From NCBI RefSeq assembly GCF_900108055.1, contig NZ_FNWJ01000002.1, positions 382,382 to 446,381 on the forward strand: DNA of 64,000 nt, given 5' to 3'. The notes beneath the pieces are model-generated. The model was not told the DNA's origin. It did no database searches and was given only the letters and a program-made list of their open reading frames with translations. Below, one piece after another: positions 31,648 through 39,341 of the stretch. Origin of the DNA: Thermoleophilum album (GTDB lineage Bacteria > Actinomycetota > Thermoleophilia > Solirubrobacterales > Thermoleophilaceae). Position 1 is the stretch's first letter, and each line of letters starts with the position of its first letter. The position numbers were made by a program, and so were the translations under genes.

Positions 31648-32991
31648 ATGGCGAGGGCGGCACGAACTTTCCATCTGACGACCTTCGGTTGCCAGATGAA
31701 CGAGCACGACTCGGAGCGGATCAAAGGCCTGCTCCGGGCGCTCGGGCTGCGTGAAGCGGCGGCGCGTTCCGACGCCGACGTCATCCTCTTCAACACCTGC
31801 TCGATCCGCGAGTCGGCTGATCAACGCTTCATCGGCCACCTCGGCGAGGCCAAGCGTCTGAAAAGCGAGCGGCCCGAGCGAATCGTCGCGGTCGGCGGCT
31901 GCTGGGCGCAGTCGATGCGCGAGCAGGTCTTCGAGATGTTCCCGTTCGTCGACGTCGCTTTCGGCCCGGGCCAGATCCACAAGCTCGGGGAAGTCCTGGT
32001 GCGCGACTCGTTGGAGGCGCAGGCGGGGTTCTTTGAGTTCGAGGACTTCTCCGCCCACCTGCCCGCCGAGCGCGCCCGCCCGTTCCAGGCCTGGGTTCAG
32101 ATCTCGCAGGGCTGCAATTGCGTCTGCAGCTACTGCATCGTGCCGCAGACGCGCGGCCGCGAGGTGTCGCGACCGCCGCAGGAGATCGTCGCCGAGGTCG
32201 AGCAGCTGGCACGCGAGGGGGTGCGCGAGATCACCCTGCTCGGTCAGAACGTCTGCTCCTACGGTCGCGACCTGCCGCGCGGCCAGCGGATCACCTTCGC
32301 CGAGCTCCTGGCGCGCCTCGATGCGATCGAGGGGATCGAGCGGATCCGTTACACCAGCCCGCACCCGAAGGACATCCGTGAGGATGTCGTGCGCGCGCAC
32401 GCCGAGCTCGCGAGCGTTTGCGAACACATCCACCTGCCGGTGCAGTCGGGCTCGAGCCGGATTCTCAAACGCATGCGGCGCACCTACGACCGCCAGCGCT
32501 ACCTCGATCGGGTAGCGATGATCCGGGGGCTGGTTCCCGACTGTTCGATCACCACGGACATCATCGTCGGCTTTCCCGGCGAGACCGAGGAAGACTTCGA
32601 AGAGACGTTGTCGCTGGTCGAAGAGGTGCGCTTCGACGGTGCCTTCACCTTCATCTTCTCGCCGCGCCGCGGCACCGAGGCGGCCGAAATGCCGGATCAG
32701 GTGCCGCACCCCGTCAAGCGTGAGCGGATGGCGCGCCTGGTGGAGCTCACGCAGCGCGTGGCACGTGAGCGTGCGCAGCGGTTTGTCGGGCGGACGCTCG
32801 AGGTGCTGGTCGAGGGGCCGTCGCGCACCGACCCCGAGCGGCTGCGCGGGCGCACCCGCCACAACAAGACAGTCAACTTCGACGGCGTTGCGCAGGCCGG
32901 CGAGCTCGCGCGCGTTCGAATAGCGTCCGCGACCAGCACGACGTTGTCGGGAGAGGAGGTCTTGATGGCACGTCTAGGGGTCGCTTCGTGA
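31648..32991 (+). CDS. miaB: tRNA-2-methylthio-N6-dimethylallyladenosine synthase MiaB
   Basis: Radical-SAM methylthiotransferase acting on i6A37; 447 residues. N-terminal cluster cysteines in TTFGCQMNEHDS, LFNTCSIRESA and VGGCWAQSM. Radical SAM CxxxCxxC in SQGCNCVCSYCIVPQTRGRE. C-terminal TRAM domain (VEGPSRTDPERLRGRTRHNK). ATG 31648 is the family start; an upstream in-frame GTG at 31537 overlaps recX. The 3' end overlaps the next gene as GTGA. Confidence 0.95.
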   Translation: MARAARTFHLTTFGCQMNEHDSERIKGLLRALGLREAAARSDADVILFNTCSIRESADQRFIGHLGEAKRLKSERPERIVAVGGCWAQSMREQVFEMFPFVDVAFGPGQIHKLGEVLVRDSLEAQAGFFEFEDFSAHLPAERARPFQAWVQISQGCNCVCSYCIVPQTRGREVSRPPQEIVAEVEQLAREGVREITLLGQNVCSYGRDLPRGQRITFAELLARLDAIEGIERIRYTSPHPKDIREDVVRAHAELASVCEHIHLPVQSGSSRILKRMRRTYDRQRYLDRVAMIRGLVPDCSITTDIIVGFPGETEEDFEETLSLVEEVRFDGAFTFIFSPRRGTEAAEMPDQVPHPVKRERMARLVELTQRVARERAQRFVGRTLEVLVEGPSRTDPERLRGRTRHNKTVNFDGVAQAGELARVRIASATSTTLSGEEVLMARLGVAS

Positions 32992-34172
32992 AGGTCGCAA
33001 TGGTCGAGCCGTCGGCGGTAGAGCGGCTGCTCGCTTTCCAGGGAGCGGGCGTGCCGGCGATCTCGCTGTACGCGGAGGTGCCCGCCGATCCCCGCGAGCG
33101 TCAACGCGTAGAAAGCCGTGTCAACAGCCTTCTGTCGGAGGCTCGGCGACTGGCAAAGGACGGCGATCGCCTATCGCACGAGGCACGTATGTCGCTGCGC
33201 GAGGACATCGAGCGGATCGAGGAGTCCGTCGCCCACGAGCTACCCGAGCCGCCCGCCGTGGCCTTCTTTGCTTGCTCGCACGCGGGGCTCTTCGAACGGC
33301 TGCGGCTGCCCGGGCGGGTACGTGACCGCGCCGTCGTCGACGAGTCGCTGTGGCTACGTCCGCTACTTGCCCAGCTCGACGCTTTCCACCGCTACTGCGT
33401 GGTGGTGCTCGATCGCGCACGGGCGGAGATCTGGGAGCTCTTCGGGGACCAGCTGGTGCCCAGCCGCAAACTGACCGGCGACCATCTGCGCAAGCGCGAC
33501 TTCGCGGGGTGGTACGGGCTTGAAGAGCACCGCGTCCGCAACCGCGCGGAGGTGCTTGCGCAGCGCCACTTCCGAGCGTTGGTAGACGAACTCGAGGAAG
33601 TCGTGCGGCTGCGCGACATCGAGCTGTTGATCGTCGGCGGCAACGAAGAGGCGGTGCCGCAGTTTTTGCGCTTCCTGCCACGCAAGCTTCGCGAGCGGGT
33701 GGCGGCGACGTTCGGAGCCGATCTCGACACTCTCGACGCGCGCCAGCTGCACGAGATCGCCACGCGCGCAGCACGCGAGTACGAGGAGCGCGAGGAGCGG
33801 GGGCTCGTGCGCCGTGTGCTGGAGGAGGCAGCCGCCGGCGGGCAAGCGGTAACCGGCCTCGATCCCTGCCTCTGGGCTGGTTCGATCGGAGCTGTCGGAC
33901 TGTTGCTGATCGACGATTACGCGACTGCTCCCGGCGTGCGCTGCGACGGCTGCGGATGGCTCGGCCGTGAGCGTCGAGAGTGCCCGGTTTGCGGGTCGCA
34001 GGTGCGGGAGGTGCCGGACGTGATCGACGACCTCGCCGAGGCGGTGGTCGCTCAACACGGCACGGTCGAACACATCGAGGTCGAAACACCGCTGCGCGAG
34101 CACGTGGTCGCGGCGGAGCTGCGCTTCCCGTTGCCGCCACAGCCGGACGGTGCGGGGCCGAGAGGGGGGTAG
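32988..34172 (+). CDS. baeRF10/Vms1-like eRF1-family protein with zinc ribbon
   Basis: 394 residues. The layout is that of the bacterial archaeo-eukaryotic release-factor relatives: a helical/beta N-domain (SLYAEVPADPRERQRVESRV), a central domain (FHRYCVVVLDRARAEIWELF), and an eRF1-like C-domain (GGQAVTGLDPCLWAGSIGAV) ending in a zinc ribbon (CDGCGWLGRERRECPVCGS). Related Vms1/ANKZF1 proteins cleave peptidyl-tRNA on stalled ribosomes; a rescue role here is inferred. Coupled to miaB (GTGA) and overlapping miaA. The GGQ lies in the C-domain helix, not the eRF1 catalytic loop. Confidence 0.72.
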   Translation: MKVAMVEPSAVERLLAFQGAGVPAISLYAEVPADPRERQRVESRVNSLLSEARRLAKDGDRLSHEARMSLREDIERIEESVAHELPEPPAVAFFACSHAGLFERLRLPGRVRDRAVVDESLWLRPLLAQLDAFHRYCVVVLDRARAEIWELFGDQLVPSRKLTGDHLRKRDFAGWYGLEEHRVRNRAEVLAQRHFRALVDELEEVVRLRDIELLIVGGNEEAVPQFLRFLPRKLRERVAATFGADLDTLDARQLHEIATRAAREYEEREERGLVRRVLEEAAAGGQAVTGLDPCLWAGSIGAVGLLLIDDYATAPGVRCDGCGWLGRERRECPVCGSQVREVPDVIDDLAEAVVAQHGTVEHIEVETPLREHVVAAELRFPLPPQPDGAGPRGG

Positions 34173-35141: not shown

Positions 35142-36059
35142 GTGCGACTCGAGAAGTGGCACGCGCTGGGCAACGACTATCTGCTGGTCGAGCGGGAGCG
35201 CTGGCCCTTGCCGCTGACCCCTGCGGTCGTACGGATGCTGTGTGACCGCCACGAAGGTGTCGGCTCGGACGGCATCGTGCTGATCGAAGCGAGTCAGGAG
35301 CCAGGGATCGTCGCTCGCTTGCGCATCTTCAATCCCGACGGATCGGAGGCCGAGCTCTCCGGCAACGGTGTCCGCCAGGCGCTCATCTACCTGCGCCGGC
35401 GCGGCCACGTCACGCACGACTCCTTCTCGGTGGCGACCGGCAAGGGCGAAGTGCGGGCACGCATCACTGGCCCCGATACCTGCGTGATGGACATCGGCCG
35501 CGTACGCCTGGTTAGCGACTCCTTTCCCAACGGTCCGCGCGACGGCCGCGGCGAGGTCGAGGCCGCCGGTCGGCGCTGGCGCTTCCAGTTCGTCGACGTC
35601 GGCAATCCCCAGTGTTCGATCGAGGTCGGGGAAGAGCTGGAAGCACTCGATCTGCAGGCGATCGGGCCGGCGATCGAGCACTCCGAGCTCTTCCCGAAGC
35701 GTACGAACGTCTCCTTCTGGCGCGCACTCGACGAGCGCACGATCCGGGCGCGGATCTGGGAGCGCGGGGTGGGGGAGACGCGCTCCTCGGGCACCGGTGC
35801 GACCGGCGCCGCGGTGGCCGCTGTCCTCCGGGGCATGGAGAGCCCAGTGCGGGTGGTGCTCGACGGTGGCGAGCTGGAGGTCGAGGTCGGCGAGGACATG
35901 CACGTCAACCTGCGTGGTTGGGCGCGGCCGCTGTTCGCAGCGGAGTTGGACGGAGATTTCGTAGAGAGGCTGCGAGCCGCCGCCGACCGCGACCAGGCGG
36001 TAGCGCCGCGCGCCGGCGAGCTCCAGCGCGACCAGCACAAGGAGGTGCCGACGGAATGA
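35142..36059 (+). CDS. dapF: Diaminopimelate epimerase-like protein with both catalytic Cys replaced by Ser
   Basis: 305 residues with the full DapF fold: MRLEKWHALGNDYLLVERER, GVGSDGIVLIEA, IFNPDGSEAELSGNGVRQAL, GNPQCSIEVG and RTNVSFWRAL. DapF interconverts LL- and meso-DAP through two cysteines, in CGNG and in ACGxG. Here the first is Ser73 (SGNG; codon TCC 35358-35360) and the second Ser216 (ETRSSGTGA; codon TCG 35787-35789). Coupled to the DapL-like gene by ATGA, which argues for a DAP role, but canonical two-cysteine chemistry is impossible. It could be a serine-based variant, a protein with another substrate, or an inactive relic; the frame is intact. Confidence 0.85.
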   Translation: MRLEKWHALGNDYLLVERERWPLPLTPAVVRMLCDRHEGVGSDGIVLIEASQEPGIVARLRIFNPDGSEAELSGNGVRQALIYLRRRGHVTHDSFSVATGKGEVRARITGPDTCVMDIGRVRLVSDSFPNGPRDGRGEVEAAGRRWRFQFVDVGNPQCSIEVGEELEALDLQAIGPAIEHSELFPKRTNVSFWRALDERTIRARIWERGVGETRSSGTGATGAAVAAVLRGMESPVRVVLDGGELEVEVGEDMHVNLRGWARPLFAAELDGDFVERLRAAADRDQAVAPRAGELQRDQHKEVPTE

Positions 36060-37219
36060 GAGCGAGCGCCCGGCTCGATCGCCTGCCGCCTTACCTGTTC
36101 GCCGAACTCGAGCGCAAGATCGAGGAGAAACGGCGTGCCGGCGTCGATGTGATCAGCCTCGGTATCGGCGACCCCGACCTACCGACGCCTGCCGCGATCT
36201 GCGATGCGCTGGCGGCAGCGGTTCGCGATCCCAGCACCCACGGGTACCCGACGAACCGTGGGCGTCCGGAGTTTCGACAGGCGGTCGCCGACTTTTACCG
36301 CCGTCGCTTCGGTGTGGAGCTCGATCCCGAGAGCGAGATCATCCCCGCGCTCGGAGCCAAAGAGTGCATCTTCAACCTGAACCTTGCGTTCCTCGACCCT
36401 GACTCCCTCGCCTTGGCAGCGGATCCCGGCTATCCCGTCTACACCGGCGGGCCGGTGCTCGCCGGAGCGAGTGCGCACCCGCTGCCGCTCGAGCCAGAGC
36501 TCGGCTTCGTGCCGGACCTCGCGGCGGTGCCCGGCGAGGTCGCCGCGCGAGCGCGACTGCTCTACCTGAACTATCCGAACAACCCCACCGGGGCGGTCGT
36601 GCCGGACGGTTTCTTCGAACGCGTCGTCGACTTCGCCCGCGAGTACCAGCTGCTCGTGGTGCACGACGCGTCGTACACCGAGCTCTGCTTCGACGGCTAC
36701 GAGGCGCCGAGCTTCCTCGCTACCCCAGGGGCGCGCGACGTCGGCGTCGAGGTTTTCTCGCTCTCCAAGGGCTGGAACATGACCGGTTGGCGGACCGCCG
36801 CGATCGTCGGCAACCGGCAGGCGATCGAGAGCTACTGGAAGCTCAAGACGAACGTCGACTCGGGGATGTTCGAGGCCCTTCAGCTGGCGGCGGCGCACGC
36901 GCTCACCGACCTGGCCGACTTCCCCCGCGAGATGTCCGAGATCTACCGCCGCCGCCGGGACTTGGTATGCGAGGCCTTGGAGCGCATCGGTGTGCGCGTC
37001 CAGCGGCCCCGCGCCACGATCTACGTATGGGCACCCGTACCGGCCGGTTTCGACGACGCAGCAAGTTGGTGCGAACACGTGCTTGAACGTGCCGGCGTCG
37101 TGGTTTCACCAGGCGCCGCCTACGGCGCCGCCGGCGAAGGTTTCTTTCGCATCTCGCTGACCGTCCCCGACGAGCGTCTGCTCGAAGCGGTCGAGCGGAT
37201 GCGATCGAGCCTGGCCTAA
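36056..37219 (+). CDS. dapL: LL-diaminopimelate aminotransferase (DapL-like, PLP class I)
   Basis: 387 residues. RLPPYLFAELERKIEEKRRA, ISLGIGDPDLPTPAAICDAL, YPTNRGRPEFRQAVADFYRR, LNYPNNPTGA, the PLP lysine in SLSKGWNMTGWR, and the C-terminal FFRISLTVP arginine. This subgroup converts tetrahydrodipicolinate to LL-DAP in one step; no dapD or dapE is in the window. A perfect AAGGAGGT (36038-36045) precedes ATG 36056, which overlaps the dapF TGA. Substrate is inferred from subgroup and neighbour; another amino acid is possible. Confidence 0.85.
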   Translation: MRASARLDRLPPYLFAELERKIEEKRRAGVDVISLGIGDPDLPTPAAICDALAAAVRDPSTHGYPTNRGRPEFRQAVADFYRRRFGVELDPESEIIPALGAKECIFNLNLAFLDPDSLALAADPGYPVYTGGPVLAGASAHPLPLEPELGFVPDLAAVPGEVAARARLLYLNYPNNPTGAVVPDGFFERVVDFAREYQLLVVHDASYTELCFDGYEAPSFLATPGARDVGVEVFSLSKGWNMTGWRTAAIVGNRQAIESYWKLKTNVDSGMFEALQLAAAHALTDLADFPREMSEIYRRRRDLVCEALERIGVRVQRPRATIYVWAPVPAGFDDAASWCEHVLERAGVVVSPGAAYGAAGEGFFRISLTVPDERLLEAVERMRSSLA

Positions 37220-37954
37220 GTGGCTGCGCCGCTGATCGCCTGTGGAGTGGTGCCGCTCGGCGGCCTCCTCCAGTTGGCGCTCGTCGAGCAGCGTCGGGGC
37301 GAGCACGCGGGAGCGCTCGACGCGCTCACCTTCGAACCCGGCGAAGCTAGTGCGGTGCGTCGCGAGCTCGCCTCGTTGGCGCCGGTGGCGGTGGTCTGCG
37401 GCTACCGGCTGCCACCCCCTGAGAGCGTGTCGACGGGCGATCCGCAAGCCGCCGAAGGAGCGGCCGCAAACACGGGGGAGCGCACCTGCGACCGGCTGCT
37501 CGCCGAGGCGGGTGTTCGCCCGAACGCCTGGTGTGCCGAGGGCGCCCAAGCCGTCGCCGATCTGCGACGCATCGAGTCCTGCGTCAGTGCTGGCGGCACC
37601 CTCGCCGCGCGCCCGCCGGCCGGTGTGGTCGCGGAAAGCGTTGTCGACGGGATCTTCGGGCGGCTACTCGGGGTGCGCCCGCCAGCGCGGCGCCACCCGT
37701 TCGGCGTGCGTGCCCGCATCGAGGCGCTCGGTCGTGCAGCTGTGCGCTTACGCGGTGGGTCGCCCTGGGACCGGCGTATCGAGGAGATCGAGGCACTGGC
37801 CTGCGCGCTCTGTGCCTTCGAACTTGCGGCGGGCAACTGCCTGTTGGTCGGGGAGCGTGCCGAGGGGATGGTCGTGCTCCCCGGTCGCGAGCCCCTGCGT
37901 CGCTTCGAGACGCGTGGCGCCGTGCCGTTGGTGGAGCGTCTCGCGTTGCCATGA
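37220..37954 (+). CDS. DUF429-like protein
   Basis: 244 residues. The C-terminal HPFGVRARIEALGRAAVRLR and IEEIEALACALCAFELAAGN followed by EGMVVLPGREP fit the DUF429 family, an RNase H-like fold predicted to be a nuclease. Middle: ERTCDRLLAEAGVRPNAWCA. The usual acidic N-terminal motif is weak. The GTG immediately follows the aminotransferase TAA. No function can be stated. Confidence 0.55.
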   Translation: MAAPLIACGVVPLGGLLQLALVEQRRGEHAGALDALTFEPGEASAVRRELASLAPVAVVCGYRLPPPESVSTGDPQAAEGAAANTGERTCDRLLAEAGVRPNAWCAEGAQAVADLRRIESCVSAGGTLAARPPAGVVAESVVDGIFGRLLGVRPPARRHPFGVRARIEALGRAAVRLRGGSPWDRRIEEIEALACALCAFELAAGNCLLVGERAEGMVVLPGREPLRRFETRGAVPLVERLALP

Positions 37955-38015: not shown

Positions 38016-39341
38016 ATGCAGGATCTTCGCGACGATGCGCGCTTCGGTCAGGGACTCCGTAATCCGAGGGCGCGCCAGCGGGCGATCTGCATAGCCGCAG
38101 CACCGCGCGAGCCGGACTTCTCGGAGCTACGGGAGCTTTTGCGCACCGCCGGGGTTGCGGTTGTCGGCGAGCTCTGGCAGCGGCGTGAGCGACCCGATCC
38201 TGACCGCTACTTGGGGCGCGGGAAGCTCGCAGAGCTAGCCGAGCTGGCCGCCGCCGTCGACGCGAACGTAATCGCCTGCGACGACGAGTTGCTCCCGCGC
38301 CAAGAGCGGAACATCGAGGCTGAGCTGAAGCTGCCGGTGGTCGACCGCACCGCGATCATCCTCGACATCTTCGCGCGGCACGCGCGCAGCGCCGAGGGCA
38401 AGCTACAGGTCGAGCTTGCCCAGCTCGAATACAACCTCGCGCGGATGCGCGGCTTGTGGACTCACCTGGAGCGTCTGGGCGGCGGCATCGGTACGCGTGG
38501 TCCCGGCGAAAGCCAGATCGAGACTGATCGCCGTCTCGCTCGCGACCGCATCGCCGAAATCCGTCGCAAGCTCGCGCACACGCGACGCGTCCGCCAGACG
38601 ATGCGGGCCCAGCGGGAACGGGCGGCGCTGCCTTCGGTCGCGCTTGCCGGTTACACGAACGCTGGCAAGTCGACGTTGATGAACGCGCTGACCGGCGCCG
38701 GTGTGAGCGTGCGCTCGCGTCTTTTCCACACGCTCGATCCGACCACGCGGGCCTTCCGCATCGAGGGTCGCACCTACCTACTGACCGACACCGTCGGCTT
38801 CATTCGCAAGCTTCCGCACCAGCTAGTTGAAGCGTTCGCGGCGACCCTCGAAGAGACCGCGCAGGCGGACCTGATTCTGCATGTGCAGGACGCCTCGGTG
38901 GCGGAAGACGAGCTGGGCGCGATGCTCGAAGCGGTCGACCGCACGCTGCGCGAGATCCACGCTGACCAGCGGCCGCGTTTGCTCGTTTTCAACAAGGTCG
39001 ACCGGCTCGACGCCGCCGAGCGGCGGGCCTTGCAGCGGCGTTGGCCGCGCGCAGTGCAAGTGTCGGCCGCCACCGGCGAAGGGCTCGAGCTGCTTCGCCG
39101 CCGCATCGATGCCGAGTTGACGAAGGACCTGCGAGCCGTCGACCTCTTCGTGCCCTATACGGAGGGAGCCAGGCTCGCCGAGCTTTACGAGGTGGCCGGT
39201 CGTGTCCAGCAACAGCACACGGCCGAGGGAGTGCTCGTCCACGCACGCCTTCCGGAGCGCTTGCTGCCACGCTACGAACGCTTCCGCTGCGACCGCCGCG
39301 CCGGTTTGGCGCCCCGGCGGGCCGTAGGGTTCGCGGTGTGA
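38016..39341 (+). CDS. hflX: Ribosome-associated GTPase HflX
   Basis: 441 residues. The N-terminal HflX domain ends in LGGGIGTRGPGESQIETDRR; a coiled linker follows (RIAEIRRKLAHTRRVRQTMR); the G domain has G1 GYTNAGKST at 212-220, TDTVGFIRKLPHQLVEAF and NKVDRL. HflX splits stalled or hibernating 70S ribosomes. The last codons overlap dut. The upstream DUF429-like gene ends 61 nt earlier. Confidence 0.94.
   Translation: MQDLRDDARFGQGLRNPRARQRAICIAAAPREPDFSELRELLRTAGVAVVGELWQRRERPDPDRYLGRGKLAELAELAAAVDANVIACDDELLPRQERNIEAELKLPVVDRTAIILDIFARHARSAEGKLQVELAQLEYNLARMRGLWTHLERLGGGIGTRGPGESQIETDRRLARDRIAEIRRKLAHTRRVRQTMRAQRERAALPSVALAGYTNAGKSTLMNALTGAGVSVRSRLFHTLDPTTRAFRIEGRTYLLTDTVGFIRKLPHQLVEAFAATLEETAQADLILHVQDASVAEDELGAMLEAVDRTLREIHADQRPRLLVFNKVDRLDAAERRALQRRWPRAVQVSAATGEGLELLRRRIDAELTKDLRAVDLFVPYTEGARLAELYEVAGRVQQQHTAEGVLVHARLPERLLPRYERFRCDRRAGLAPRRAVGFAV

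Follow-up and report, generated by a model that had tools for sequence, protein, structure and literature searches.

Diaminopimelate epimerase, DapF, is the standard example of epimerisation by a thiol/thiolate pair. Textbooks describe the enzyme as requiring two cysteines, and it is a target of antibacterial inhibitors that attack these residues. Here we analysed a DapF homologue of Thermoleophilum album (class Thermoleophilia, order Solirubrobacterales) in which serines stand at both catalytic positions. It is encoded on a stretch of 64,000 nucleotides, hereafter the window (contig NZ_FNWJ01000002.1, positions 382,382 to 446,381; coordinates below are counted from its first letter), beside a dapL-type gene for an LL-diaminopimelate (LL-DAP) aminotransferase.

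Among described proteins, the DapFs of Haemophilus influenzae (1BWZ), Escherichia coli (4IJZ) and Corynebacterium glutamicum (5M47) resemble the window protein in structure, with TM values of ∼0.73–0.82 by query length. The C73S (2Q9H) and C217S (2Q9J) forms of the H. influenzae enzyme share its fold and carry serine at one of the same two positions, but each was made in the laboratory by one substitution in a Cys/Cys enzyme, whereas both serines of the window protein are natural and fixed across its order. HisR from Fusobacterium nucleatum and PddB are likewise cofactor-independent proteins of the DapF fold but, unlike the window protein, are Cys/Cys enzymes. The proline racemase superfamily, which belongs to the same fold family, includes a Ser/Thr 3-hydroxyproline dehydratase and a 4-hydroxyproline 2-epimerase with a Ser/Cys pair, a precedent for serine in the DapF fold (PMC4113996). 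That epimerase has serine on one side only and the superfamily acts on other substrates, whereas the window protein has serine on both sides.

Active-site residues and predicted fold

The dapF-like gene is an open frame with a GTG start and without internal stop, encoding 305 amino acids, and its product scored 197.2 bits against the DapF model TIGR00652 (curated cut-off 114.65 bits). The intact DapF-like frame proposed in the initial annotation, made from the letters alone, is thereby confirmed. Alignment with E. coli DapF also agreed with its claim that both catalytic cysteines are replaced: Ser73 and Ser216 fall on Cys73 and Cys217, so that the two-cysteine feature of the family gives way to Ser/Ser. 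The further statement that all other DapF signatures are present stood for the DAP-binding residues but overlooked a third change. The GNPH motif of DapF reads GNPQ here, with Gln157 in place of the active-site His159 (E. coli), which was His in 38/38 aligned Cys/Cys rows.

The DAP-binding residues N11, N64, G74, N75, N157, N190, E208, R209, G218 and S/T219 were kept in the window protein and in all Ser/Ser groups of the main alignment. Their counterparts in C. glutamicum DapF (CgDapF; N15, N74, N85, N159, N194, E212, R213 and T223) have been mutated to probe substrate binding (PMC5296763). The AlphaFold model of the window protein (mean pLDDT 95.5) has the DapF fold with the catalytic positions at the N-terminal ends of two central helices, Ser73 and Ser216 immediately preceding helices 74–86 and 217–229. 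Its top structural matches were DapFs, the two H. influenzae serine mutants among them.

With DapF (TIGR00652, PF01678) the window protein thus shares the two-domain architecture, the substrate-binding residues, a locus with dapL and occurrence as a single copy; it differs in the serines at both catalytic positions and, throughout its order, in the glutamine at site 159. Because homology, locus, fold and substrate residues fit while the two-cysteine feature fails, the name Ser/Ser variant of DapF suits it better than plain DapF.

Distribution and origins of the Ser/Ser form

Conservation and copy number were analysed in 299 genomes of the class Thermoleophilia, with the 111 genomes of the order Solirubrobacterales as a subset. 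The alignment for the order contained 114 rows, some genomes being present in two collections. By their public names, the rows belong to Solirubrobacterales, Thermoleophilaceae and Solirubrobacteraceae, and they include the isolate Solirubrobacter taibaiensis KCTC 29222 and a Conexibacter metagenome-assembled genome. Equivalents of Ser73, Gln157 and Ser216 were found in 114/114 rows. The Ser/Ser pair, for which the initial annotation had proposed a check of whether it is clade-wide, is therefore invariant across the order; it is also present elsewhere, as described below. Both serines were among the 54 invariant columns of the 274 in the alignment core. The codons of 113 rows were TCN (110) or AGC (3) at site 73, and TCN (93) or AGY (20) at site 217. 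Single-step routes between TCN and AGY require an intermediate codon for a different residue, frequently Cys or Thr; therefore, selection keeps serine itself. The window dapF is under purifying selection, with dN of ∼0.21 versus dS of ∼1.0 against its nearest relative.

A PF01678 search of the T. album genome detected one protein, as two half-domains, and no second DapF homologue. The same domain was found in 109/111 genomes of the order, including 78/78 of good quality, nearly always as the two half-domains of one protein, and nearly every one of the 299 class genomes had one DapF homologue. The search for a second, Cys/Cys DapF suggested by the initial annotation thus returned none in this genome and one copy per genome of the order, with two possible exceptions in 111; the Ser/Ser protein is the sole DapF homologue and not an inactive paralogue beside a normal one. 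The exceptions, G307 and G272, gave four and three half-domain matches instead of two, which may indicate a second DapF or contamination.

Two other Thermoleophilia families, f11 and f7, also have Ser/Ser DapF as the sole copy, with His159 kept (13/13 rows read for f7), and families f5, f6, f8, f9, f10 and f12 were Cys/Cys in the rows read. Beyond the class, Methylomirabilota, Verrucomicrobiota, Chloroflexota, Bacillota, Atribacterota and the Hydrogenothermaceae (Aquificota) include genomes with a Ser/Ser DapF whose C-terminal motif differs (ASG-S/T-S), and Acidobacteriota yielded a divergent Ser/Ser DapF. Every Ser/Ser genome from these other phyla has one DapF homologue. His159 was kept in the Ser/Ser groups outside the order except for one acidobacteriotal row with Asn. 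This lone sequence (L160:4001-4855) lies on a long branch near Cys/Cys rows and is possibly another independent switch. The 61 Aquificota genomes comprised 18 with the Ser/Ser form and 43 with a distant form, Cys/Cys in 12/12 read, and apparently none with both.

To place these changes, we built a tree of 63 rows from which the trait columns had been removed. Five changes between Ser/Ser and Cys/Cys were needed on it, at least three of them on well-supported branches. A single origin of all Ser/Ser forms was rejected by the approximately unbiased (AU) test (one clade of all Ser/Ser rows, p = 0.014; p = 0.024 in a smaller set). The AU test did not reject a clade of the window's order with f11 (p = 0.42), nor one of the order, f11 and the multi-phylum group (p = 0.161). 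The sequence data reflect at least three and most likely about five switches, with an exact count that is uncertain since these smaller unions stand. Codon usage at site 73, AGY in 24/24 multi-phylum rows versus TCN in 110/113 rows of the order, fits separate origins. No mixed Cys/Ser pair was present among the ∼200 rows read; sites 73 and 217 change together.

Need for meso-DAP and the proposed role of the serines

LysA decarboxylates the D-centre of meso-DAP and so requires meso-DAP. It scored above cut-off in 103/111 genomes of the order, that of T. album included. Ddh, recognized by its DAPDH_C domain, was absent from the T. album genome, from 109/111 genomes of the order and from 297/299 of the class. 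MurE of T. album has the DNPR motif, which indicates DAP but does not alone separate LL from meso. According to the Conexibacter woesei genome paper, meso-DAP is the diagnostic wall diamino acid of all Solirubrobacterales, C. woesei included (PMC3035278), and it has been found in Solirubrobacter (PMC10722151). With LysA widespread, Ddh nearly absent and meso-DAP walls published, the bacteria of this order need an epimerase.

The picture was similar elsewhere: Ser/Ser genomes outside the order had LysA above cut-off in 26/26 and Ddh in 1/26, and the Ser/Ser Aquificota (Hydrogenothermaceae) had LysA in 18/18 and Ddh in 0/18. Members of the Hydrogenothermaceae are described as chemolithoautotrophs (PMC9933696, PMC3635849), and hence must make their own meso-DAP, external lysine or DAP being unlikely. 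Ddh as a bypass to meso-DAP was rejected, only two genomes of the order and one of Atribacterota being positive. The few genomes with a Ddh domain were G254 and G325 (order), G031 (f5) and G334 (Atribacterota); in G254 and G334 it occurs alongside a DapF of a Ser/Ser group. Five genomes of the class, 92–97% complete (G016, G028, G064 (f8), G089 (f5) and G110 (f7)), gave neither a DapF match with two queries nor Ddh, which points either to assembly gaps or to another source of meso-DAP.

The initial annotation had left three options: a serine-based epimerase, another substrate, or another enzyme making meso-DAP. The evidence favours the first, and the conserved DAP-binding residues make another substrate unlikely. 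We put the probability at roughly two in three that the window protein is a working LL-DAP epimerase with the usual DAP-holding residues and with Ser73 and Ser216 as its acid/base pair. LL-DAP supplied by the DapL of the adjacent gene would be converted by the Ser/Ser DapF into meso-DAP, for LysA (lysine) and MurE (peptidoglycan). The usual DapF residues would hold DAP while the two serines stood in for the thiolate/thiol as a two-sided base and acid, the base form most likely being a desolvated alkoxide stabilised by the helix dipole. Both the epimerisation of DAP and proton transfer by the serines are what we infer from conservation and context.

Several points weigh against this proposal. 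Cys-to-Ser mutants of PddB keep <0.1% of activity (PMC8225329), and the pKa values quoted there for a free thiol (∼10) and hydroxyl (∼16) make a serine base chemically demanding; Cys-to-Ser mutants of HisR are also greatly reduced in activity (PMC11602996). Because such engineered single mutants are nearly dead, Ser/Ser enzymes must be tuned elsewhere. The change to Gln157 and the fixed Tyr13 may perhaps be part of this re-tuning. Only sites 73 and 217 themselves change with Ser/Ser in every group. Site 13 held Tyr throughout the Ser/Ser rows read, yet Cys/Cys rows have Tyr, Phe or His there, so that Tyr13 is not exclusive. In addition, a literature search that most subscription papers fell outside found no natural Ser/Ser epimerase whose activity had been measured and no published natural Ser/Ser DapF; such a DapF is likely new to the literature. 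Finally, sequences alone cannot tell the serines from another group as proton carriers.

This last point leads to an alternative that we consider unlikely, in which the window protein is a working DAP epimerase whose protons are moved by an active-site Tyr, Glu or bound water, the serines only orienting. The constancy of Tyr13 among the Ser/Ser rows and the invariance of Glu207, Asp43 and Asp66 would suit it, and PhzF, a relative of the DapF fold that uses Glu and not a Cys pair, was among the structural matches of the model. However, Tyr13 is also found in many Cys/Cys rows, none of the residues that separate Cys/Cys from every Ser/Ser group would make an obvious base, and both serines are strictly kept across changes of codon class.

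It is less probable still that the Ser/Ser protein has no epimerase activity and that a non-homologous enzyme makes meso-DAP. The near inactivity of engineered Cys-to-Ser mutants speaks for such a loss, and a non-homologous replacement would be invisible to the homology searches used; yet the gene is conserved, has remained a single copy and keeps its place in the locus with dapL, all DAP-binding residues are kept, Ddh is absent from nearly all these genomes, and such a loss with replacement would have to have taken place several times over, in different phyla. Very little probability attaches to another substrate or reaction, such as dehydration or isomerisation, as in the Ser/Thr members of the proline racemase superfamily. 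That a Ser/Thr pair gives a dehydratase there (PMC4113996) and that the DapF-like HisR proved to be a histidine racemase (PMC11602996) are set against the complete retention of the residues binding the distal DAP centre, the dapL gene in the locus, and a genome with LysA and no other DapF. A sequencing error at both codons, named in the initial annotation as grounds for dismissal, was rejected along with pseudogene and contamination: independent assemblies, a named isolate among them (S. taibaiensis), agree on the same residues in 114 related rows with both classes of Ser codon, and the frame is open and under purifying selection.

On balance, we favour the broader view that two-base epimerisation can proceed without thiols, a Ser/Ser pair having replaced Cys/Cys in an essential enzyme several times in bacteria, and that cysteines are no chemical requirement of the DapF reaction. 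If so, thiols would be dispensable for removing the unactivated alpha-proton of an amino acid, Ser/Ser DapFs would provide naturally occurring enzymes that should withstand oxidation or alkylation, and automatic annotation would conceal a mechanistic split, as Ser/Ser proteins pass the DapF model. If the Ser/Ser protein is instead inactive, several phyla must harbour a DAP epimerase of an unknown kind. As for the benefit of the exchange, CgDapF is sensitive to H2O2 and is inactivated by an oxidative catalytic disulfide (PMC5296763). A Ser/Ser enzyme would escape this inactivation, a possible advantage. Redox protection is a plausible cause, but as a general one it fits poorly with the presence of the Ser/Ser form in Atribacterota, which are anaerobes.

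Locus and neighbouring genes

Features of the locus are listed in the table below. The ATGA overlap with dapL reported in the initial annotation is present, the dapL-type start ATG at 36056 running into the dapF stop TGA at 36057–36059. The downstream protein is under the cut-off of TIGR03540, a model stricter than PRK09276. Among rows of the order with enough sequence, miaA lies upstream of dapF in 101/103 and dapL directly downstream in 84/108. Related families with a Cys/Cys DapF (L058 and L061, for instance) share the gene order miaA-dapF-dapL, as does family f11; the Ser/Ser dapF thus occupies the orthologous locus.

Table. Features of the dapF locus in window coordinates
Feature	Position	Strand	Basis or remark
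Ser/Ser DapF homologue	35142..36059, stop included	+	TIGR00652 match, AlphaFold model, sole PF01678 protein of the genome
Tyr13 codon	35178..35180	+	Tyr in every Ser/Ser row read; lead only
Ser73 codon TCC	35358..35360	+	Catalytic Cys73 of E. coli/H. influenzae DapF by alignment
Gln157 codon CAG	35610..35612	+	Replaces His159 (E. coli), invariant in Cys/Cys DapF rows
Ser216 codon TCG	35787..35789	+	Catalytic Cys217 of E. coli DapF by alignment
miaA	34150..35130	+	Upstream neighbour; TIGR00174, 150.3 vs 148.65 bits
dapL-type LL-DAP aminotransferase	36056..37219	+	PRK09276, 529.5 vs 507 bits
hflX GTPase	38016..39341	+	TIGR03156, 426 bits; further neighbour in the conserved locus

Two further frames on the same strand lie close to these genes. 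Between dapL and hflX, an open reading frame of 244 amino acids (37220-37954, +) had no NCBIfam match, and the product of 32988-34172 (+) showed weak similarity, under the family cut-offs, to Rv2629-type ribosome hibernation factors and aRF1/eRF1.
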